A program made the translations under genes and the position numbers. Shown here in pieces: positions 972 to 15,549 of a DNA stretch of 18,088 bases. The stretch's first letter is position 1, and every line of letters begins with the position of its first letter. The notes under the pieces were generated by a model, which saw only the letters and a list, made by a program, of their open reading frames with translations, did no database searches and had not been told where the DNA came from. Source of the DNA: Stephanodiscus triporus. Its lineage: Eukaryota > Bacillariophyta > Thalassiosirophyceae > Thalassiosirales > Thalassiosiraceae. The stretch covers positions 1 to 18,088 of the forward strand of contig JALLAZ010000270.1 of the NCBI GenBank assembly GCA_036939755.1. Direction: 5' to 3'.

Positions 972-1050
972 GAAGTAGGGAAAGCCAAAGGAAGACGAAG
1001 AACCAAATCCGACAGGAAAGAAAGAAGAAAGTTATTCCACACTGAAGATT

Positions 1051-3018
1051 ATGGCAAATCCATCATCCATCAACCTGGGCGACGTCAGCGGCGGCGGATC
1101 GGCCCTCAACGCGGCATCGGCCAGCGCAATGGACAATCGATTAAGGCATATCATATCCGCATCATGTTCCGTAGTCTCAGCCAACTCCAGATCTTCCTCG
1201 TCTACGAAGTCGTCGTCCGCGACAGCAGCGGCAGCGATGGGTGGCTGGGCTGCCGGGTTAATGGTGGAGGGAGGGCCCGAGGCCACGGAGACTCTTACGA
1301 TGCAGCAGCTCCCCAGCGACAGCAGTCACAATTGTGGCGTCGCACCCTTCGAGGGGAACAAGGAGGACGGGGATGGCAACGAGGACTTACATGCCAATGG
1401 CAGTGCTTCTGCGTCCTGCGCTGCTGTCGCAACCCATACACCTGCCGTACTGGGGGGATTCGACGGTGGCAATCCCATGATCTTGCAGATGGGTGCCCCG
1501 CTCCATCCAGTCGCCGAGTTTCTATTCCAGCTTACCAAGATGTTGACGGATAATAACACGGAATTTATTGAGTGGCGCAATGCCTCAATATTTGTACATG
1601 ATCCTCCGGTGAGATTTTTGCACCATCTTCCTTCTTGTTGTTATGTGTAGGAGACTTTTGACTCATGTTTTTCACTCAGGGTCTGGAAAGAGAGATTTTG
1701 CCGAGGTATTTCCGTCACTCCAATTATTCCAGCTTTGTAAGTAACCAAACAATTGATGCCTTTCAAACTTCCGCACTCCATGAGCCATCGTGTCTCTCAC
1801 CCCGCTTTCATTATCATAATTGCACATACTCTTCAGCAACGTCAGATGAACTACTTTGGCTTTCGTAAGATCGCTGGAAAGGGCAAAATGGCCCCCTGCT
1901 CATACGTCAATGAGCACGCCAAGGAAGACATTTCAAGTCTCCTCTTCATCAAGCGGAAGAAGACAGGAATTTCCAGTGCCGCGGCCAAGCTTTTGGCGCA
2001 GCAAAATCGCATCAACCGCTCCATGGGATTAGGTGGCATGGGCATCGCTGGAAACGCCTTGGGTATGATTGGCTACAATCACGGAGGTATGGGAGGTGCC
2101 GCCGGTGTCCCTGGGGCCGGCGCCACTCTCTCATTAAACAACTTTGCTATGTTGGGGGGAGTTCCCGCCATGGAAGGTGCTGGGAACGTGCTGTCCGCGT
2201 CAAGCTCTCTCAACGATCAGGCAAGTCTCCTCCGTGAGCAGCAGAATATTCTCGCCCAGCTCCAACAAGCCCATGCCTTGGCCATGACCAATACTGGATC
2301 CCTGGGTATGGCAGGATCAGCACAGGGGGGTATTTCTCAATTGACCCAGAGCAAGCTCAATGGCTTGAGCATGAACAGCGTCGTTAACGCCGGCCTCCTA
2401 ACCAACGATCAGGGCAACGTCTACATGAGCTCCAACATTCCGAGCAACTCCGCAGGCGCCGATGCAGCGACGACTCAGTCTCTTCTGATGCAACAAGCAA
2501 CATCTAGCGTTGCTGCTGATGGTAACCTCCCTCAAGCAGGAATGAGTGGCCCCCCTAGCGCGGGGGGGAATTCTGGCAATCTCGTAAGGGTCGATTCTGC
2601 CGCCAACTTACGCGCGTTGATTAACGCACAGATTTCGATGTTCAGCACACCGGGAGACCCGTTCTCATGGTCTACCATGAATACAATTGGAAGCTCGTTG
2701 GGTTCTCAAATGCCATCCTCTCAACAGGGAGGACGATTCAGTTCCATTCCTACGGGGACAACTGGCCTGCTGTATGATTGGAACGAAATTCTCCAGCGAA
2801 GTGCTAACATGGCGGGAGTAGGAAGTGACAATTTTGATTTACCAGGTGCTGGTCCTAACACCATATCTATCCGTCAGCTCGAGCAGCAACTTCTTCAGGG
2901 TAGTAACAGTGAAGGTGCAGCAACTGCTCCCATTGGTCAGTCGTTCAACTTTGGTGGGATCTTTGGTACGGGCGCAGGCGGTGTCCCTCAAGGTTTCCAA
3001 CAAGGCTATCAAACATGA
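1051..3018 (+). CDS. Heat shock transcription factor (HSF family)
   Basis: Nuclear transcription factor that binds inverted GAA repeats as a trimer. Exons are 1051-1608, 1680-1736 and 1837-3018 (598 residues); introns of 71 and 100 bp begin GTGAGA and GTAAGT, end in CAG and keep the frame. ATG 1051 is the first after an in-frame TAG at 976. Residues 1-150 are a Ser/Ala/Gly-rich extension. The DNA-binding domain spans about 155-247: FLFQL at the start, [13 protein letters not shown] then [11 protein letters not shown] forming the recognition helix (intron 2 falls inside it), ending in FIKRKK. The helix resembles FVRQLNMYGFRK of animal and plant HSFs, with the QRQ...YFGF form I associate with diatoms. 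A Gly/Met-rich linker is followed by a short heptad region (about 330-354) that may be the trimerisation domain; it is shorter than usual. The C-terminus is Gln/Ser/Gly-rich, typical of activation regions. Diatoms carry many HSF paralogues, so orthology cannot be set. Confidence 0.93.
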
Positions 3019-4223: not shown

Positions 4224-4325
4224 TGATGTAACTTTCCGAAAAGTGACGGCGGTCTCGTTTAAAAATTGAAATCGTGAGAACAAGGGGGGACGGGAGAATC
4301 ACTAAGTACGCGACGACGTCACACC
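4224..4325. promoter_or_regulatory. Compact divergent promoter/leader
   Basis: Only 102 bp separate the start codons of the unknown minus-strand gene and meckelin, so both leaders and any shared control sites must lie here or within the genes. It contains GACGTCAC (4315-4322), one base off a palindromic bZIP/CRE site, directly before the meckelin ATG. No TATA box is evident. Confidence 0.45.
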
Positions 4326-7300
4326 ATGAAATCAAGTTTGACCTTGTTATTTTCAGCTGTACCTCTAGTTCTGCAGCTTCTTTTTTGGCAGTCTCACAGT
4401 GCAGCAACGTTTCCAGTCCCAATAAATCTACAATGCCCCGCCCTTCACTCGTTCGACGACACGGGGCTTCACTGCGAGGAATGCGACTCAAGAAAAATCT
4501 GTGGTTGTCCGTCGACTTCATTGCTTGTTAATGTTGAGTGCTCAAAAGATCAAATGTGGCAGGGGAAATGCGAAGAAACATTTTGCTCTACCGGATGCCA
4601 TGACGACGAGATGGCTGTATCACATGACCGACGAGCTTGTGTACCCTGCTACAACACTGACCAAAACTCGATCTATGAATCATCTGAATATGATGCCATC
4701 TCAAGCGACTGCACTTGCAACAATCCTACGAAAGGTGTTCCTACTAGAAAGCGACTGGCGACAAAAAAGCTTGTAGAAATCTACGATTCGTCAGGATTGC
4801 CGACCAGAAAAGATTGTTTGAGATGTCCAGAAGGAATGGCGGTCATAACGGATAACTTGATCGAAGATGGACAGCAATTCTTTGTCACTGCAGGCAGAAA
4901 ATACATGGCTGATCCCTATTCGTGTGTTTCGTGTCCCGATCCTCGTCATATGTTTTTCGACATGGACTATTCTTGTGTTTGTATTGATGGATACTTTCTG
5001 ACGGGTGAAGCCTCTGCGGGTGAACAGTCATGCATAAAAAACACCCCTTCTGTATCCTCAACATCTTACTCCAAAGTTCACTTTCGGGATCCGTTTAGAC
5101 TGGAGGCAAGCGATGACTTCACGCTTGAATCAATTCTTTTCTCTCATTTGTACATCAAGGCGGCATCTGAGTGCGAATTCTATTCAGGCTCTTCCGGGAC
5201 GGGTCGCCGTTCCTGTCAAGCCTTGGGTAACCTATGCGTCTTGAGCATGTACGACCAAGACACGCCGGCCTGTAAACAACTCGAAGTAATATATCAAAGG
5301 CGCCAAGAATCTTATCACGGTATTGTCGGCTGGAAAGACACACTTCCTTATCTTTTCTATCGTGGCGAGCCAGAGTATATATTAAATGACAGAGGTATCA
5401 ATATGAGAGTATCGTTTCACCCAGAAGTTGACCACGTGCATGTTTTGCAGTTCAAGTTTGCTAAGTACACCATGAACGGCACGTTTGTCGGAATCGAAGA
5501 AGTGCAAAATCAATTTGAATTCTGTGCTCAAGACTCTCTGAGTGTAGATAAGAGTCGGAGTCACTGGTCGGTGTTCGGATTGAGCTACCGTGTTGAGCAC
5601 ACCTGTCCGATAAGCAGCCTTGTCGGAAACGAGATGTTCCTTTACGATATGTACCTTGTTGATGAAAGCGCAGATGCATGCAAATCGGAATCGGATTGCT
5701 TGTACGGGGTGCCAGTATTGATACGCAATCTCGTGAAAGATGACAAGTTCCCAAATGTTAACCAGCGACTTGGTGATGACATCGATGATGTTTATACACG
5801 TCGTTTCTTCCTCTTTGACAGTAAGTCTGGGCAAACCTCGTCAGGCATCGAGGCTGTGCGCTACGCAAAGAAAATTGTACTGCAGATACAAATTCAATCA
5901 GAGCAAACCAGACTTTATCCCCCGAAGCTGACTATTGAATATGCAACTGCTACCAAAGGGAGTTGGTCAGGCGAAGAGGAAATCTCCTCAGTGTTCCAGG
6001 TTGAATACTCAATGAAGACCGATAAATTTTGGGAATCGATTCAGATTATGATTGGATTTCTCTGTGCATTTGGGGTGGTAATCTTTGGAATTCGATTGAA
6101 CAATTGGCAAAGTCGCCAAAGGGCTAGTGATGACGGATCGGCTGGGTCAATATTTGGTCTTTCTTTGGTGCTTCACGCTTTGATGGTTGCCAGTCATACC
6201 TTCGTGGTGCTACTTTTTTTTTTCATCTTCATGATTTGTCTGTATTGGTTTGTCTTCTTCAAGCTACAGAATGAGGTTTATATTTTGTTGCCACCAAAAG
6301 ACGAGTTCATCTTTTTTGAGATATCATTTCGTTCCCTATTCTGGTGTTCAACAATTCACATGGCATACGTCATTTCAAAACAGTGTATGAGTGACATAAT
6401 CTTTGTCGACTGGGAGTGCCGTAGAGGGGGCAATTCCGGCAATGGCGTTTCAATGTGGAGGTTGGCCACAGTTGCCAATCATTTCAACAAGATTCAGTCG
6501 AGGCGTCGAAGTAACATTGAATTTTCTTTGATATTTGTCGGATTTGTCATGATAGGTCTTCGCCAAAATCAAAATGCACTCCCCTACCCTAATTTTCATT
6601 ACCACTACAGTGGAAACAATGGCAACATTGCATTGGAATTCGCAAACACGGTCATCTTCTGGATTGCTGCCGCCATCATCCAGTGGTTATGGCGATTTAT
6701 CGTTTACGAGCGCTTTCTCGATGAGCCTCCCTCCACGAAGTTTGTAGACCTTTGCACGATGTGCAACATCTCAGTTTTCATAATGGTGGAGAACCATAAG
6801 GGCTACTACCTGCATGGTAAGTCTCCATACGAATCTGCAGATTGCAGCATGGAGGGACTACTGAAGAACTTAAAACGAGAAGGTAGGGGAACAACGACTA
6901 CTCGTGGTCTTGTTGGAGCCACGGGCGGATGTCAGATTTTTACTTTCTTTGCTAGTCCAGTCTTTCGCCGCCAGATTTCCAAGATTTATAGCTACGCTAG
7001 GCCAGGTCAAGAGCATCGCTTCTACCAATCTAACAACGATGCAGAAAAGAACCACCTTGCAAGGGCCGAAGTCACCGTCTTCTTGCAGAGTTTCATTAAC
7101 AGGCAACCATCTCCATCTAGGGATGGACTGAGCTACGTCGTCAGAGAATCATGGATGGCTGAAAGGCTCTTAAGCGTTACACCCGCTGAGTTCCGAACGA
7201 AGAGCGAGCCAAAATGCATCATGTATCAGGATGATGATGGATTTTTATCATCAACATTTCTAGATCTTGGCATAGAGGTCGATCTACTCATTCATGATAT

Positions 7301-7457
7301 TCTCACGTACAATGCAGCCAGTATGGCCTTCAACAATGTTGGGGTTTCAATCTTTTTGACATATCTAATGCACCTACTTAGGACAGCCAGTAGGTCATGG
7401 TTTGGAACACGAAATTTATCCGATAAGTCTTTTATTGACCCAAGATTCTTCGAGTAA
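4326..7457 (+). CDS. TMEM67: Meckelin (TMEM67/MKS3) homologue
   Basis: Meckelin is a multi-pass protein of the MKS module at the ciliary transition zone, which gates protein entry into cilia. This intronless frame encodes 1043 residues; human meckelin is about 995. A signal peptide covers roughly 1-26, then a cysteine-rich ectodomain with many CxxC pairs (about 36-240) and a beta-rich region to about 565. Hydrophobic segments follow near 573-592, 609-630, 629-646, 668-686, 731-746 and 772-796. Meckelin landmarks are in order: FVDWE (693-697), an SMWR...VANHFNKIQ block from about 710 (human SIWR...VANEWNEIQ), YERF (794-797), FVDLCTMCNISVF from 806, KGYYLHGKS (825-833), LKRE, and the terminal DKSFIDPRFF (human SKTLVDQRF). 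ATG 4326 has A at -3. A run of ten T (6214-6223) does not break the frame, since homology continues on both sides. Its presence argues for a lineage that still makes cilia, such as centric diatoms with flagellate sperm. Confidence 0.95.
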   Translation: MKSSLTLLFSAVPLVLQLLFWQSHSAATFPVPINLQCPALHSFDDTGLHCEECDSRKICGCPSTSLLVNVECSKDQMWQGKCEETFCSTGCHDDEMAVSHDRRACVPCYNTDQNSIYESSEYDAISSDCTCNNPTKGVPTRKRLATKKLVEIYDSSGLPTRKDCLRCPEGMAVITDNLIEDGQQFFVTAGRKYMADPYSCVSCPDPRHMFFDMDYSCVCIDGYFLTGEASAGEQSCIKNTPSVSSTSYSKVHFRDPFRLEASDDFTLESILFSHLYIKAASECEFYSGSSGTGRRSCQALGNLCVLSMYDQDTPACKQLEVIYQRRQESYHGIVGWKDTLPYLFYRGEPEYILNDRGINMRVSFHPEVDHVHVLQFKFAKYTMNGTFVGIEEVQNQFEFCAQDSLSVDKSRSHWSVFGLSYRVEHTCPISSLVGNEMFLYDMYLVDESADACKSESDCLYGVPVLIRNLVKDDKFPNVNQRLGDDIDDVYTRRFFLFDSKSGQTSSGIEAVRYAKKIVLQIQIQSEQTRLYPPKLTIEYATATKGSWSGEEEISSVFQVEYSMKTDKFWESIQIMIGFLCAFGVVIFGIRLNNWQSRQRASDDGSAGSIFGLSLVLHALMVASHTFVVLLFFFIFMICLYWFVFFKLQNEVYILLPPKDEFIFFEISFRSLFWCSTIHMAYVISKQCMSDIIFVDWECRRGGNSGNGVSMWRLATVANHFNKIQSRRRSNIEFSLIFVGFVMIGLRQNQNALPYPNFHYHYSGNNGNIALEFANTVIFWIAAAIIQWLWRFIVYERFLDEPPSTKFVDLCTMCNISVFIMVENHKGYYLHGKSPYESADCSMEGLLKNLKREGRGTTTTRGLVGATGGCQIFTFFASPVFRRQISKIYSYARPGQEHRFYQSNNDAEKNHLARAEVTVFLQSFINRQPSPSRDGLSYVVRESWMAERLLSVTPAEFRTKSEPKCIMYQDDDGFLSSTFLDLGIEVDLLIHDILTYNAASMAFNNVGVSIFLTYLMHLLRTASRSWFGTRNLSDKSFIDPRFFE

Positions 7458-7499: not shown

Positions 7500-10400
7500 C
7501 TAGCTATTTGACACTCGGCGAACAGACATGCCATTATCCTCAAGTTGAGATCTTATGTTTTCGATTGCCGTTGCTTTCTGGTTGTCTTCAACTTCTAATG
7601 CGAACTCCATTATCGCTTTTGATTTTTGTCCCCGTAGTCCATACTGTAAAACTGTAGAATCGGGTGCGGCATCTTTGATGAGCTGCATTGTGTGCGCTAA
7701 GATACCTTCTTTTTCTTTGGCCTCAACTCGAAGCAGAAGTGCCCCCTTCTTCCCCCATGACTTATCTAGTGATTGTACGGAGTACTCCCGTAAAAGTGAG
7801 TCAATACGGTCAGAAACAGCATCAGCAGTCGGGCGCTCTGATGCAGAATCTGAAATCATTTGGACAAGAAGGCCATGTATAGTGGGGAATGATGTTTTTA
7901 CATGAGAATTCCAATATGCAGGGAAGTTCCCTTTTCGAATACAAGCAAACTCCTGGTACCGTTCCATCGCTGTATACATTGGGTATAACAACTCAAACAA
8001 TATTAGCCCGAGCGAAAACACATCTGTGCTTGCATCATAGTCGGATCCTCTCATTTGCTCAGGGGATGCGTATGCTTGTGTGCCGACACCAACAGTGTTT
8101 TCTGTCATACTACCTTTTGGAAGTGAAAGACCATCACCTGGGACAATATTGGCATCCTCGCGATTTTCGTCACGATCAGTGATGTCGCCAGCAGCAGACG
8201 ATTCGCGACTCAGACCAAAGTCACCAACTTTGACAATTCCAGCATCATCAATAAAGCAGTTCTAGAAGGAAATGAATAGGGTTAGCAAGTTCTGTGTATT
8301 ACTTATTTTCGATTTGTGAAGTTCTGTGTGCTGCATTTATTTCGATTTTTGCAAACAGATGAGATGGCGCTTACTTACCTGCGGTTTTAAGTCACGATGA
8401 ATGAGCCCTTGCTTGTGTACATGTCTTATAGCGTGACCAATTTGAGCAAATAATCGAAGGGCAAATGGTATGTCTACAGCATAAGGCGGTTTTTGTGATG
8501 AGCAATATGGAACAGCGCCACATCGGGCTTCGCGGCTTGCCAAGAAGTCCGCCAGAGTCTGGACGCTACAAAGATGCATCTGGATGAACAGAATGTGTCG
8601 TCTCTCCGTAGGTTTGCTCTCGCAATCTGCATCGATTGTAGAATCAGGCAATCCTACTTTCTTATTCACGCCACTATTTGATTGTAACGCATTTGCATTC
8701 TTTTTGCTGTCAAAGCTTGATTGACTTTCTTCCAATTTCAAAGTTTTGTGTTTGAGCTTACTTGGTAATTGCATCTGGGAAGTTATTGAGGGTTCATCTG
8801 TGTTGTCTTTGCTTCGTTCCCATGTGAATCCCAAGTCGTCGTCATCGTCTTGGCACAGCTCATTGTTGGGGGAATCATGTTGTAGGGCAGCAATCGATTT
8901 TGATTCATCTAATCGTAAGCCGCCAAAGTTATTCAATCCAAGTGGGTTGTATGATCCTAAAAATCCATTGGCTGATAAATGTTTACTACTTCGCTTTGAG
9001 AAAGGCGCGTGCAGTGCCCTTGAATTTGATCCAAAGCCGCTGAAAAGACCGCCAGAAAAGATGCTCGTCGATTTCTGATCAGCGAATGATATTGTTGTGT
9101 AGGTCTCATCGTCAAACTCATTTTGATCAACCTCAAGCCATGCAGTATAGTACCGGACGATATTGGGGTGATCTAGGAGGGCCAGGCATTTTACCTCTCG
9201 CAGTACACGGTGGAGCTTTTGCGAAAGTTGCTTTGTGACATTCCCATCTACACTCAGTGGAGATGCAATCTTGATCTTTTTAATGGCATATTCACGGCCG
9301 TCAAGTACATTCCGACACCGAAACACAGTCCCAAAACCCCCTCTGCCTAGTGGCAAAATCTCATTAAACTCAGAAGTGTATCTGGAATATCGAACAAGAG
9401 GTATTCCATCTATATTATCAACACCCGGCCGGGACTTTTCATCAGAACTCGCATCTGTTGGAAGCGACTTCAATCCCATGGTGGACGGAAGAGTGGAGGG
9501 ATGGGTACTGTTCAATGACAGCGCTTGATCTGGAAAGGTCGACGTCACTCCGTTAATATCTGAACTAAAAGGCTGACCTCCATTGTGGCCAGGAGAGTAT
9601 AAATGAGATCCCATGGCACCTGCACTCCAACTCCTAGGTACAACAAGATGATTCTTTGGAAAAATGTTCATATGAATATTACCCGAAGTTGGCGCAGTTG
9701 GATTTTGGGCAGATGGTGGAAGTGATATGTGCTCATCCTGGCATGAACTGGGAGTAGTCGTTGGTTCAAGGCTGGATGCATGTTCCCATTTTCGTTTCTG
9801 TCGAAGAATGATGACTCTGGATAAGAAACCAACGAGTGAAAGTAAAATCAAAACAAGTGCTGAAACCATTGACCAGGTGAGATAGAGCCCGTGCTCTGTT
9901 CTGTGCGATAGAGTACGCCGAACATCAGCCATCGCCTGTTTTGAAGGACTCATGGCGAATATATGTGGGTGATATTCATGGCCATGACTAGTCACTCCCT
10001 GCGGCGAAAGAGGGGCTTCGAAATTGATTCCATCGTCATTGACGTCAAATTTAGTGCGGACAAACAAATGCGAGTGATGTCGACCAATGGATTCAAAAAT
10101 ACCAGCTGAGTTTGAGATCAGGTTTCCATACAGAGTGAGGCCTTCATACGCCAGTGAATAAGATGGCAAAAGTCCCTTGTGAACATTTTGTGGTGAACTG
10201 CGATGGCCATCGGTCAATATAGCAGCCTCATCAATGACATCCAGTTCTGTCCACTTGCTCTCACTATCGACGCCCAACACAATTGCGACCTCACTTTCAA
10301 TTTGGCAACTCCAAAGAAGCTCCCGGCTAATTTCATCAACTGCTAGAAGACTTTTTCGATCCTGGAGATTGCGGATGAGTCAAGTGCGAAAAATATAATA

Positions 10401-12005
10401 CCGTGCAGGAATCTTTGCATCAATATAATCTTAACAGGGCAACACGCTCACCTTTCCAAATGCGATAGAGGGAAGGTCTCGAAAAGAGTGGTCATGATTG
10501 TCGTCATCATCACGGTTATCAAATAAGCTTTCCTTTCTGCCGCCAGCGTGTCGACTGTCTCCAAACACAGCATCGTCAAGGTCGAGTAAAGATGTCTTTT
10601 TCCTTCCAAGAATAGGAGACACACCGCTTCTCTTCTTGTCCTCGGAGTCCAGCGAGGCCGCCATGGCGGCAACCCCTCGCTTTCTCCCACTCCCAACATG
10701 AACACCCCCTGTAGATCTCTCACCAGCAAATACGCCATCGTCACTGTTGGTTCCTTGGACGCCACCGCTTTGGGGCGTTACCAACGCAGAGAACATGCCC
10801 AGCTCCACCTTCCAAACCTCCTTGCCCTCATCAGTATCCGTGTGCCTCACAGCATAGTCTTCACGTTGAAGTAATACCGTTCTTCCTCGTGCAGTAGTTT
10901 TTGGCGGATGAGTTGTATAACCACGCCCACCCGCACCTCCTTGAGGATCCTGCGTCCATCGCACTTTACCAGTTGTGGGGTCGATTGCGAAGATGGTTAT
11001 TTTTTTTGATCCCATGATTATTCCGCATTGTTTTTGCTGTGTATCGCCATCTGAACATATGGAGAAGGGAGAATCAACGACGTCCATGACCCTGATGCGG
11101 TGAGGTGTTAGAATTGGCCCAGAGCGAGCCTGTGAGGTTACAGAGCCACAATTTTTGTCTACATTGTCATAATCTTCATCAGCAGAAAATTGGCACCCTC
11201 CGGGTTTATCTTCATTGCCATCTCCCACACCATCCCCCTCAAACTCAAAAAGACTATACAATCGTCCATCTAGTAATCCAGGAATGACCCTCTCCTTCCA
11301 AACATGGGAGACTTTCGATGCTAATGCATACCTTGAATCACCATCACGGTCATCGATTGCGATGTCATCCCCTTGTCCATTCGTTGCATCTGTAAAGGTG
11401 CCATCTGTAGTATGGTCATCATTAGGAGACGAGGAGAACACTAAAGGACCCGTGGCAAACATATTCCTCAATTTGCCAGTATATGCATCCAGTGTATAGA
11501 CTGTGCCATCAACACCACACACTACGAAGGAGGCTGCAGAGATGGAATCGTGCTCATGTCCAATTTTCTCATAGTGGTTTCGCCCATAGTTAAATGTAGT
11601 CCTTTCGTTGGATGTGATTGTTGGGGCCGGGTCCCCCTCCTTATCGAGAGGGGGTGACGATTTAGGGGGGGTCATGAATGGGCTTTTCTTCTTCAGTCGC
11701 TCTTTCAGCTCCTCCAAGACAATTGGTGAGTTGGAGAGAGGCTTCGGCGCATGTGCCCGTGGATTTCGCGGTAGTATCCCCGCTGGAGGTGGAGGTGCAT
11801 GCCCCCCCCTCGGACCGGCACTAAATCCGTCCTTACCTTCTTCAAAGATGAGGAATTTCGGGGGGGGGGGAGGAGCTATCGTCTCGATTTTCTCACCAGT
11901 GACATCGCATTTGTCCTTGTTCAATATGGGTTTAGCACGGCGAACTTTTTCTTCTTCATGTTCTTGCGGTTGTTGTGCGTCAAACTTTCCTCCGGATATT
12001 GACAT
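7500..12005 (-). CDS. PERK-like eIF2-alpha kinase with ACT-like tail
   Basis: Kinases of this family sit in the ER membrane, sense unfolded protein in the lumen and phosphorylate eIF2-alpha to reduce translation. Exons are 12005-10452, 10361-8379 and 8261-7500, joined in phase 0 across GT-AG introns of 90 and 117 bp; product 1432 residues. Residues 1-150 are Pro-rich and charged. From about 155 comes an IRE1/PERK-type luminal propeller: DGTVYTLDAYTGKL, then AIDPTTGKVRW and LLAVDEISRELLW. One membrane helix lies at about 681-703. The kinase starts near 850: glycine loop GRGGFG (857-862), Lys879 in AIKK, NIVRYYTAWLE typical of eIF2-alpha kinases, an insert of about 175 residues, HRDLKPQN (1173-1180), DFG (1193-1195), GTQAYASPEQ and DVFSLGLILFEL. 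Catalytic residues are intact. A tail at 1352-1429 has the beta-alpha-beta-beta-alpha-beta pattern of an ACT domain. No signal peptide is seen, and a TAA lies in frame just upstream of the ATG, so a 5' exon may be missing. Confidence 0.92.
7512..7745 (-). other. ACT-like domain encoded at the kinase C-terminus
   Basis: Residues 1352-1429 of the kinase. Predicted order: strand GALLLRVEA, a turn with KEKEG at the usual ligand-binding position, helix ILAHTMQLIKDAAP, strand STVLQYGLR, strand KAIMEFALEVE, helix NQKATAIENIRSQLEDNG, strand MSVRRV. This is the ACT fold order and spacing (about 75 residues). The call rests on pattern recognition; other ferredoxin-like folds remain possible. Confidence 0.5.
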
Positions 12006-12252: not shown

Positions 12253-12383
12253 GTAAAGTACGATACATACTATGGTACCAAACCTTTTCCCGTATGACGC
12301 TCACGTATTTTGGTATCGTAGCAGAATTCTGAACTCCTCCACCACCGAACCTCCCAGTTTCCAGTTGGAACCACAACAATGCC

Positions 12384-15300
12384 ATGGCCTCGTCGGCAGC
12401 GCCTTCCACAGGGCAGCAAACAACCCCAATTCTAGAAGAATACAAGCGACTGAAGGAAATTCAGTCAGACCTTAGCGACCTTTGGCGCGATGAGGTCCAT
12501 CTATACGAACAGACCAAATCGGCCTCCGCCGTTGGCGGCGTCGACGACGCTGACAATTCTTGCGAGACTCGCAACCATTTCAACGGCAAAGGCGCCGTCG
12601 AGAACGAAAGCCTCTTCCCCTACCATGAGGCCCTCTACCCCCTCTTGGACTGTTACGATTCGATAGAGGTAGTCGGCGGAAAGGAATACGCGTTCCGGCC
12701 ATCGCCAACGCCTATGCCCTTCGAGTACAATGGCCATCGTCGATCTAGGTCATCGCCTCGCTTGGACAGATACGGAGTTCGCATAGAGGAGCTGACGACG
12801 TTACACGAACATTTGCCGAACTCGTCATGGGCGATCGAGCACTTGATGCCTCAGAATCGGAGGGTTCAGTACGCGGAGTACGAGGGGTCATCGTCACAGA
12901 CGCAAGCGGTCGACCACCAACACGTGCCAATTCAAGGAGAGCTGGATGAAAACATCGAACGCGAGACGCCACCTCGTCATGATAATTATCGTTTTTGGAA
13001 CATTTTGATGGATCCAATTTCAGAACCCGTCCTTCGTTCGGATATCAGCATGCATCTTGAAGTGGAAGCTGCCGAGGATGAGGATGATGGCAGCGGCGAC
13101 TGGGAAGATTTCGGCGACGAAGAAGACGATGAGGATGAGGATGATGGCAGTGGCGACTGGGAAGATTTCGACGACGAAGAAGACGATGAGCAAAATATTA
13201 AAGAATTGGTTGCATTCGACGTTTCAAAGAGTGCGAAGAATGCGAGGGACTTCACGTTCCTGAGATGGTGGCAGCACGCAATCGTCCATGAGAGGAGAGG
13301 TGTGGTCAGCCCTATTGGCGAAGCTGAAAAAAAGCACCCCGTCACGCATCGCTACTCGCCAGAGAGTCTTTTCGCTGACTGCCCATCCGCCACGATGGTA
13401 CTTCTCAAGGTGCTGCGACACTCAATGTCCGACCTTCAACGCGACTTCCGATTGGCGCGAGCCGTCCTGTTGCTTATTGCCGACTGGAGCCTTTGTGATG
13501 ACAACGAAGAAGAAGCACAAGTCGGGAGAGAGACGTCGGGTATTGAATGCCTCCGACGTCTGTTAACTATTATTTCGTCGGAATATGCAATGCGAAGTTG
13601 TGGTGGATATTGCCACGAATGGTACATTGCAAATGGCGGCATCAGTGACGATGAGGACGACTTAGAAAATTCGACCAGGTTGCATACTCCAAGTCACTAT
13701 TGCACTGACGTAAGTCATATTGATGAGTTTTTTGCTATCCATCGCTCTTATAGACATTTTGTTCCCAATAACAGCACTGTATCATCTTCTTTTGCAGTGG
13801 TGGGAGTTTCTTGGCGCCTTGTCGACACTCATCTCTGAGGGTATTTCACATCTGTCTGTACGACACGCCAATGTTATTTGCGCGTTTGTAATGCTTGAGT
13901 TGAATCGCGCAAACAGCTGTGCAGGCCCAATGGATGATGCCAGTGGCAGCGAAACGTTGTCGGGAAAGGCATATCTAAAAAGAAATCTTTACTTCTTGAA
14001 TAATGCCGAACAGGACATTGGGAGAGTACGAACTGCTGAGGAAGGATTGCCGCAAGATACTGCCCCTTTTAATATCAACCTTCTCTTAACAATTGTAAGC
14101 GCCTTGCGACAGCATGCGCTTTCTGATCGAATGAGACTTGTCAAGCTAATTGATGGAATGAATAGTTCTAGCGCAACCTTTGAGAGCAACCAAGGTGACA
14201 TTTCAACGCGGCTGTCCAGATGTCTTGACTCGTTCCTATCTTGTGTCAACGTTATGGTAGATATTGGAGAACGCATTGCTCTTCAACTCCCATGCAATAT
14301 CCATGGTAGGCAGCTTGGTGGCATGCTGATCCGAGGTCTCGTGGAGGCATATATTGGCACTGATAGCTACTCTTCGCAAGCGCGTAAGCCTCTGTCCTAT
14401 CTTGCACGAGAGCAGGATGCAAGCTTAAGGAGTCTCATTGACCCTCGTCGATATGCCGATGCTGTGGCAAACAGCTCTAATCATCCCTTTTTGCATCCAA
14501 GCCGCCGCCACGGCAACATCACAACTGGCAGGTGTTTGATTGAGCATTTTATAGGGATCCAGCCACCTACCCAAGTAATAGACACTGTGAAGGCTCTATT
14601 CACAGCAGATCTTGTTGATTTGCAAGTCAGTGGGTGCGGATATGGAGATTTTCTCACGTGGTGTCATCTCCCAATATCGCCGGAACCTCTGTTATTCGAT
14701 TACGTTTCTAACTTTCCTAATTTGAGTGACGTGGGTGATGGCGAGTCGCGGAACGAAGGGTGGGTGATAGATGAGGATGAAATTGAGCTTGATTACGACC
14801 ATCTCTGTGCTAGATATGATTTTTCCCTTCTTGTGTTCTTGAGACAATGGCACGCACCGTGGACACCAGACAGCCACCTCTCATTCTCACTACCTTTCAG
14901 GTGCTCTGTATCAACCCTTGCATTGTGTGCACATCGCTACGGTGTTCCTCATGACATGGTTGCTCTTGTCAACTCATATTTGCCGCGTTCATGGTGGCCT
15001 GATGACAGAAGATGCTGTTGGTGTCGTGATTGCCAGATGAATCGTTTGAAACATCAATCCCAATCAAGGAATATGGACGGCCAATATTGTCTTCGGTCAG
15101 AAAGGAAGGAAAAGTCGAAGGAGGGTCAATCTAGTCGTCTCAAGTCAGAAAGAGAGGACAAACAGAAGCCACCTCTCAGTTTGATGACTTGTTCTGGTTG
15201 TCAGGTTGCGATGACCTGCTCCAAAGAACACATGCAATATCTGCATAAAGATGGTCATAAAAGATATTGTGGCCTCCCCCCCTTTCGAGCTCCATTCCAT

Positions 15301-15549
15301 GAAGATGACAATAACATCTGTCGAGAGGTACTGGGTGATGGAGAAGAGGAGGAGACTAACGTCCTAGAAGATCAAGATGCTGGTACTCAGGAAGACGACA
15401 ATATTGACGATGGGAGCTGGGAGAGTGTTGACAGTAACGAAGAAGAAGTAGTTGAACCAGGAAAAAGTGACGTGATCTTTTCATTCTTCAACAGCAAATC
15501 TTACAAATTACAACAGCGTGTTCAGTACCCATTCTCCAACTTTTTCTGA
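12384..15549 (+). CDS. Acidic protein with C-terminal MYND-type zinc finger
   Basis: Exons 12384-13709 and 13798-15549, joined in phase 0 across an 88-bp GTAAGT...GCAG intron; 1025 residues. MYND fingers are C-terminal protein-interaction modules common in diatom proteins of unknown role. Here the finger spans about 848-933: Cys848/849, Cys851 and Cys854 (CCWCRDC), a basic insert of about 50 residues, then Cys907, Cys910, Cys916, His920, His929 and Cys933 (CSGC, TCSKEH, GHKRYC). Compared with the classic C-x2-C...C-x2-C...C-x3-C...H-x3-C, the first two pairs are unusually far apart and one Cys is replaced by His920. Residues about 230-270 hold a tandem acidic repeat, and a second acidic stretch follows the finger. 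The large middle part is mostly helical-looking and unrecognised; a coiled coil is likely near 17-45. No signal peptide or membrane helix. ATG 12384 (GCCATGG) is preceded 5 bp upstream by an out-of-frame ATG. Confidence 0.87.
13074..13187 (+). repeat. 57-bp tandem duplication inside the MYND gene
   Basis: Two adjacent 57-bp units (13074-13130 and 13131-13187) differ at only two bases and encode two 19-residue acidic repeats with the core DDGSGDWEDF. Near identity implies a recent in-frame duplication or homogenisation. Confidence 0.9.

Follow-up and report, generated by a model that had tools for sequence, protein, structure and literature searches.

An ACT-like domain behind the kinase domain of a PERK-type protein in diatoms and Parmales, from sequence and predicted structure

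A PERK-type protein of diatoms carries a C-terminal tail that is, by predicted fold and profile homology, an ACT domain. The protein is encoded in the window, which is the whole stretch of Stephanodiscus triporus DNA that was analysed (18,088 bases). We put the probability at roughly one half that this tail is a genuine ACT domain, was joined to a PERK-type kinase before the diatom crown, lies in the cytosol, is coupled to the kinase, shifts its activation threshold, and is gated by a ligand where the ligand loop is kept.

Gene structure and kinase identity

The protein is encoded on the minus strand of the window by one gene of 3 exons, and has 1,432 residues after splicing. Its parts are arranged in the order of a PQQ-type propeller, one transmembrane helix, a PERK-type kinase domain with a long insert, and the C-terminal ACT tail. 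The features are as follows.

10452..12005, minus strand: PERK exon 1 (coding), residues 1-518, PQQ-type propeller segment (open frame, PF13360, splice site read)
10362..10451, minus strand: intron 1, GT-AG, phase 0, 90 bases (inferred from sequence)
8379..10361, minus strand: PERK exon 2, residues 519-1179, from the end of the N-terminal part through the transmembrane helix, the kinase N-lobe and the insert to the start of the C-lobe
9810..9890, minus strand: predicted transmembrane helix, residues about 676-702 (Kyte-Doolittle scan)
8262..8378, minus strand: intron 2, GT-AG, phase 0, 117 bases (inferred from sequence)
7500..8261, minus strand: PERK exon 3 (coding, with stop), residues 1180-1432, kinase C-lobe, linker and ACT domain (PF00069, match to PERK 4g31)
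7746..7793, minus strand: linker between kinase and ACT domain, residues 1336-1351 (comparison of segment identities)
7512..7745, minus strand: predicted ACT domain, residues 1352-1429 (AlphaFold, Foldseek, VIA, hhalign)
7704..7706, minus strand: codon of Gly1365, the canonical glycine of the ACT ligand loop (alignment of 97 representatives)

The propeller segment is matched by Pfam family PF13360 with an E-value of 9.2e-9, a match that passes the cut-off of this family, and residues about 676-702 are the sole segment of the protein above threshold in the Kyte-Doolittle scan. Intron 2 separates HRDLKPQ from NCFID, so that an unspliced reading breaks the kinase directly after the HRD motif. The kinase is complete, as the original prediction stated, because the lysine of YAIKKIKI, HRDLKPQN and DFGLS are all read directly in the spliced protein. 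The boundaries that were given for the tail are likewise exact: the codon of G1352 starts at base 7745 and the 78 residues end at 7512.

Exon 3 is matched by PF00069 (E 3.2e-12), and its best PDB match, when it is searched alone, is PERK (4g31, E 7.7e-18). The best PDB relatives of P0084, a close homologue, are eIF2-alpha kinases, with PERK first at 5.8e-48; 17 of its best 19 PDB rows are named PERK, HRI, GCN2 or PKR, 2 bear a generic kinase name, and row 20 is NEK2. Together with the propeller and the one transmembrane helix, these nearest kinases support the assignment of the protein as a PERK-type eIF2-alpha kinase, with a predicted luminal side. The MSI start (12005, minus strand) is common to several Thalassiosirales-type PERKs, and an in-frame stop is located a few codons upstream of it. 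An N-terminal signal peptide is not visible at this start in a hydrophobicity scan of the window protein and several Thalassiosirales-type PERKs, while P0102 and P0106 start hydrophobic in the same scan, which is not a dedicated predictor. Some 670 residues would have to reach the ER lumen from a start without a hydrophobic signal peptide.

Other genes are located on the plus strand. Meckelin/TMEM67 is encoded at 4278-7457 in one open frame (PF09773, E 2.4e-153), and its stop and the stop of the PERK gene, which are on opposite strands, are 42 bases apart. Meckelin is a protein of the ciliary transition zone, and its presence would make sense in a centric diatom whose sperm bear flagella. A MYND-finger-like protein is encoded at 12333-15549 (PF01753, E 7.1e-4, below the cut-off), and no PDB match is found for its N-terminal part at E 0.01. 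The region at about 1050-3018 looks by eye like a heat-shock-factor-type transcription factor; Pfam gives no match for its unspliced exon pieces.

Predicted fold and homology of the tail

The AlphaFold model of the tail is a confident ferredoxin-like fold of the order b-a-b-b-a-b (pLDDT 89.7), and the best matches of this model among solved structures, by Foldseek and VIA, are ACT domains. The original prediction had recognised the same order of strands and helices by eye and proposed that it be checked with a structural model and a profile search; the model agrees with it. No ACT chain is matched among the PDB sequences, whether the tail is used as a single sequence or as a profile, so that the fold and a comparison between profiles are needed. 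RelA/SpoT-type is the nearest ACT family, as judged from Foldseek rank and Pfam matches. A profile of 48 tails (out of 77 listed from the 195 that passed the score and length filter) was compared by hhalign with a profile of RelA-type ACT domains (ACT_4), the one ACT family used, which was built from 30 of 34 domains after 4 near contig ends were left out. The relA loci of one search were too alike for profile building. The comparison gives P 2.3e-7, and none of 300 shuffles comes near the real score. The RRM profile (27 of 30 loci), the one non-ACT ferredoxin-like control, gives 0.4% and P 0.14.

Pfam points weakly in the same direction. ACT_4 is matched by 11 of the 48 tails (best E 1.7e-4, with the shown bit scores below the curated cut-off), and is the sole Pfam family matched by more than one of them. 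A ferredoxin-like domain of another origin that has converged on the same topology would account for the designed ferredoxin folds and the ribosomal S6 that are also present in the structure match lists. It would account for neither the difference between the ACT_4 and RRM profiles nor the exclusive match to ACT_4, and is very improbable. These results support the tail as a genuine ACT domain by predicted fold and profile homology, in agreement with the identity first proposed for it.

When the genome itself is searched with the tail, the tail is the one match among the best candidates, which alone were scored. The RelA/SpoT-type ACT domain of this genome is encoded at a separate locus (L002, G000:C667:7190-7417) and does not have the loop glycine (NDRKLLL).

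Distribution and history of the fusion

The tail has 80 relatives at E <= 1, and a separate search gives 31 long relatives, which argues against a chance similarity. All 31 long ones contain a precomputed kinase domain, and 18 of them are also matched by PF13360. Kinase-less relatives of ~170 residues were considered as stand-alone ACT proteins and rejected. The short relatives start within the kinase, mostly at MERxxxF, and are therefore taken as last exons; this reading rests on 28 of the 80 relatives read individually, the other 52 being aligned only.

Seven of the 31 long relatives are derived from transcriptomes (five mmetsp, two CAMPEP), Skeletonema and Bolidomonas among them. These bear on the reading that the kinase ends earlier and that the tail is a read-through or part of a neighbouring gene. 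The gene model of the window was read from the DNA sequence of Stephanodiscus triporus, in which the tail is in the same exon and the same frame as the kinase C-lobe; such an artefact is hardly conceivable in view of the transcribed relatives.

Among the 120 listed of 846 matches to kinase plus tail, 89 are new relatives, of which 84 have the tail and 5 do not. The named rows, a minority of these 120, all belong to diatoms or Parmales. Over the searches together, carriers with a name include the diatoms Thalassiosira, Cyclotella, Leptocylindrus, Aulacoseira, Chaetoceros, Grammatophora, Nitzschia and Seminavis and the parmaleans Bolidomonas and Triparma. This result indicates, at the level of sequence, that the fusion of an ACT domain to a PERK-type kinase is real, as had been proposed from the window alone. 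The search for the same tail in other PERK homologues succeeds in diatoms and Parmales, but one diatom clade does not have it.

A kinase tree was built from 94 of 118 kinase rows; P0116, P0117 and P0189 were also left out, having no recognised start. Its root was placed on three rows assigned to Parmales, the sister group of diatoms; one of them is named, and P0111 and P0115 are placed by similarity. The labels raphid, araphid, Chaetoceros-like and Thalassiosirales-type follow general taxonomy and the small number of tips that bear a name. All 5 rows without the tail group together (SH-aLRT 99), in a clade that diverges later than Leptocylindrus and Aulacoseira; its position depends on branches with SH-aLRT values of 93, 84 and 92, while the branch of all diatoms has 99. 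A single loss is the simplest reading, because the tail-less rows form one clade. The position of this clade and the presence of the tail in Parmales suggest that the fusion is older than crown diatoms, and it appears to predate the split of diatoms and Parmales. The tail-less proteins (P0177, P0183, P0185, P0190 and P0193) have a conserved C-terminus of their own, of the type LLGEYTC-LLGLDFSMYQ-LRQLDR, in place of the ACT domain.

Conservation, proposed role and known systems

Conservation was counted over 97 representatives at 70% identity. E1398 and F1399 are fixed in all 97, R1357 and R1427 in 96, and E1359 and Y1386 in 95; L1367 and A1400 are also near-invariant. The first six of these residues are located in the strands and in the QYGLRG turn between b2 and b3, not in the ligand loop, and are unchanged in both the Gly-loop and the Asp-loop groups. 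This pattern is what would be expected if the ACT fold were an interaction module that forms dimers, or binds to the kinase, the ribosome or some other protein, and senses no metabolite. A similar function is attributed to the C-terminal domain of GCN2. Judged from the alternating pattern of the strands, the open side of the sheet would be lined by R1357, E1359, E1398 and R1427. This is the main rival to a ligand-gated domain, and a serious one, though its odds are below even.

The ligand loop is conserved in another way. Gly1365, which is aligned with the glycine of ENRPG in SerA, is glycine in 49 and aspartate in 39 of the 97 representatives. The EG(I/L)L turn noted in the original prediction is thus present in the window but is not a feature of the whole family. 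The glycine is kept by 13 of 14 rows of the Thalassiosirales-like group, 12 of 14 of the Chaetoceros-like group and 11 of 12 of the araphid-like group (36 of 40 together). All 6 early single branches also have it, as does 1 of 3 Parmales-like rows. Among the 39 raphid-like rows scored, 1 has glycine and 33 have aspartate. These counts indicate that the classical loop belongs mostly to the non-raphid diatoms. At least 7 changes of the Gly-loop state are required on the tree. Three residues ahead of the glycine, D, E or N is present in 34 of the 49 Gly bearers. Retention of the glycine in non-raphid rows, together with this acidic or amide residue, exceeds the needs of a pure scaffold and argues against an interaction module that is independent of any ligand.

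E. coli SerA contacts serine at three positions, one of which is His344. The position of His344 is alanine in 84 of the 97 representatives and the other two are variable, so that serine is unlikely to be bound in the manner of SerA. That the domain reads a cytosolic metabolite, as was first put forward, is still a proposal; the loop is rewritten in the raphid-type clade and the serine contacts of SerA are absent.

When the window protein is compared with ten Thalassiosirales-type relatives, the linker of 16 residues between kinase and ACT domain has a mean identity of 94%, the highest of ten segments. This value favours mechanical coupling over a loose tether. The tail could also be a former ligand sensor that survives as a structure and does little else, since it was lost once while the kinase was kept and since its loop was rewritten in the raphid-type clade. 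This is improbable, because the mean identity of the ACT domain to the ten relatives (63%) is close to that of the kinase C-lobe (69%) and above those of the cytosolic linker (48%) and the kinase insert (44%), and because the tail is kept in nearly all of the listed relatives.

In the preferred reading, the ACT domain is a regulatory module of the cytosolic side that is coupled to the kinase C-lobe and is possibly gated by a ligand in non-raphid diatoms. The ACT domain would lie in the cytosol behind the C-lobe, to which the short and highly conserved linker would couple it. It may pair with its counterpart on the other kinase of a PERK dimer, and this pairing would shift the activation threshold of the kinase. 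In centric and araphid-type diatoms, which mostly keep the D/E-x-x-G loop, a small molecule may gate the domain, an amino acid being the default guess; in the raphid-type clade, the ligand would be changed or lost. A wider proposal, that diatoms and Parmales fused the sensing of amino acids or other metabolites to PERK, so that one kinase gates both ER folding stress and nutrient state, and that raphid pennates re-tuned the loop, is tentative. If it is true, the integrated stress response would have a route that is independent of the HisRS-like sensor of GCN2.

What distinguishes the eIF2-alpha kinases from one another is the sensor, which is a luminal domain, a HisRS-like domain, RNA-binding domains or haem. 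An ACT domain would add a further type and would give the diatom PERK two candidate sensors. Diatoms account for much of the primary production of the ocean. Two natural experiments, the switch from Gly to Asp and the clade without the tail, make the role of the ACT domain testable. A description of an ACT domain on an eIF2-alpha kinase is not found in a literature search whose reach excludes most subscription journals, and the claim of novelty stands within that literature. Papers containing both 'ACT domain' and 'eIF2alpha kinase' concern other proteins in their accessible parts (PMC8945916, PMC8045761). The Phytophthora infestans kinome contains five PEK/GCN2 kinases, and the term 'ACT domain' is not found in the available main text (PMC3019232). 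In the available part of a Thalassiosira silicon paper, GCN2 is discussed and PERK appears just in a reference title (PMC3478156); nothing on a PERK kinase is found in that of PMC8252717.

The protein resembles PERK (EIF2AK3) in its PQQ-type propeller, one transmembrane helix, long kinase insert, eIF2-alpha-kinase sequence and best PDB match, but the Thalassiosirales proteins have no obvious N-terminal signal peptide, by hydrophobicity only. To our knowledge, human PERK does not extend far beyond its kinase domain and lacks an ACT domain. GCN2 (EIF2AK4) is also an eIF2-alpha kinase with a C-terminal regulatory part; it has a HisRS-like domain and its own C-terminal domain, whereas the diatom PERK has an ACT domain directly behind the kinase. 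GCN2 is not seen among the 50 structure-search matches listed for the tail (Foldseek, VIA); a likeness may exist beyond these rows. Plant STY8, STY17 and STY46 are likewise protein kinases regulated via an ACT domain; they are cytosolic, carry this domain ahead of the kinase, and belong to another kinase family with another substrate. Binding of isoleucine by the STY ACT domain is reported (PMC8953291, PMC7020187), the primary paper being Eisa 2019. The STY kinases thus provide a precedent for the gating of a protein kinase by an ACT domain. The C-terminal ACT domain of RelA/SpoT is of the family nearest to the diatom tail, and RelA/SpoT links starvation to translation, but it does so as a (p)ppGpp synthetase and is not a kinase.
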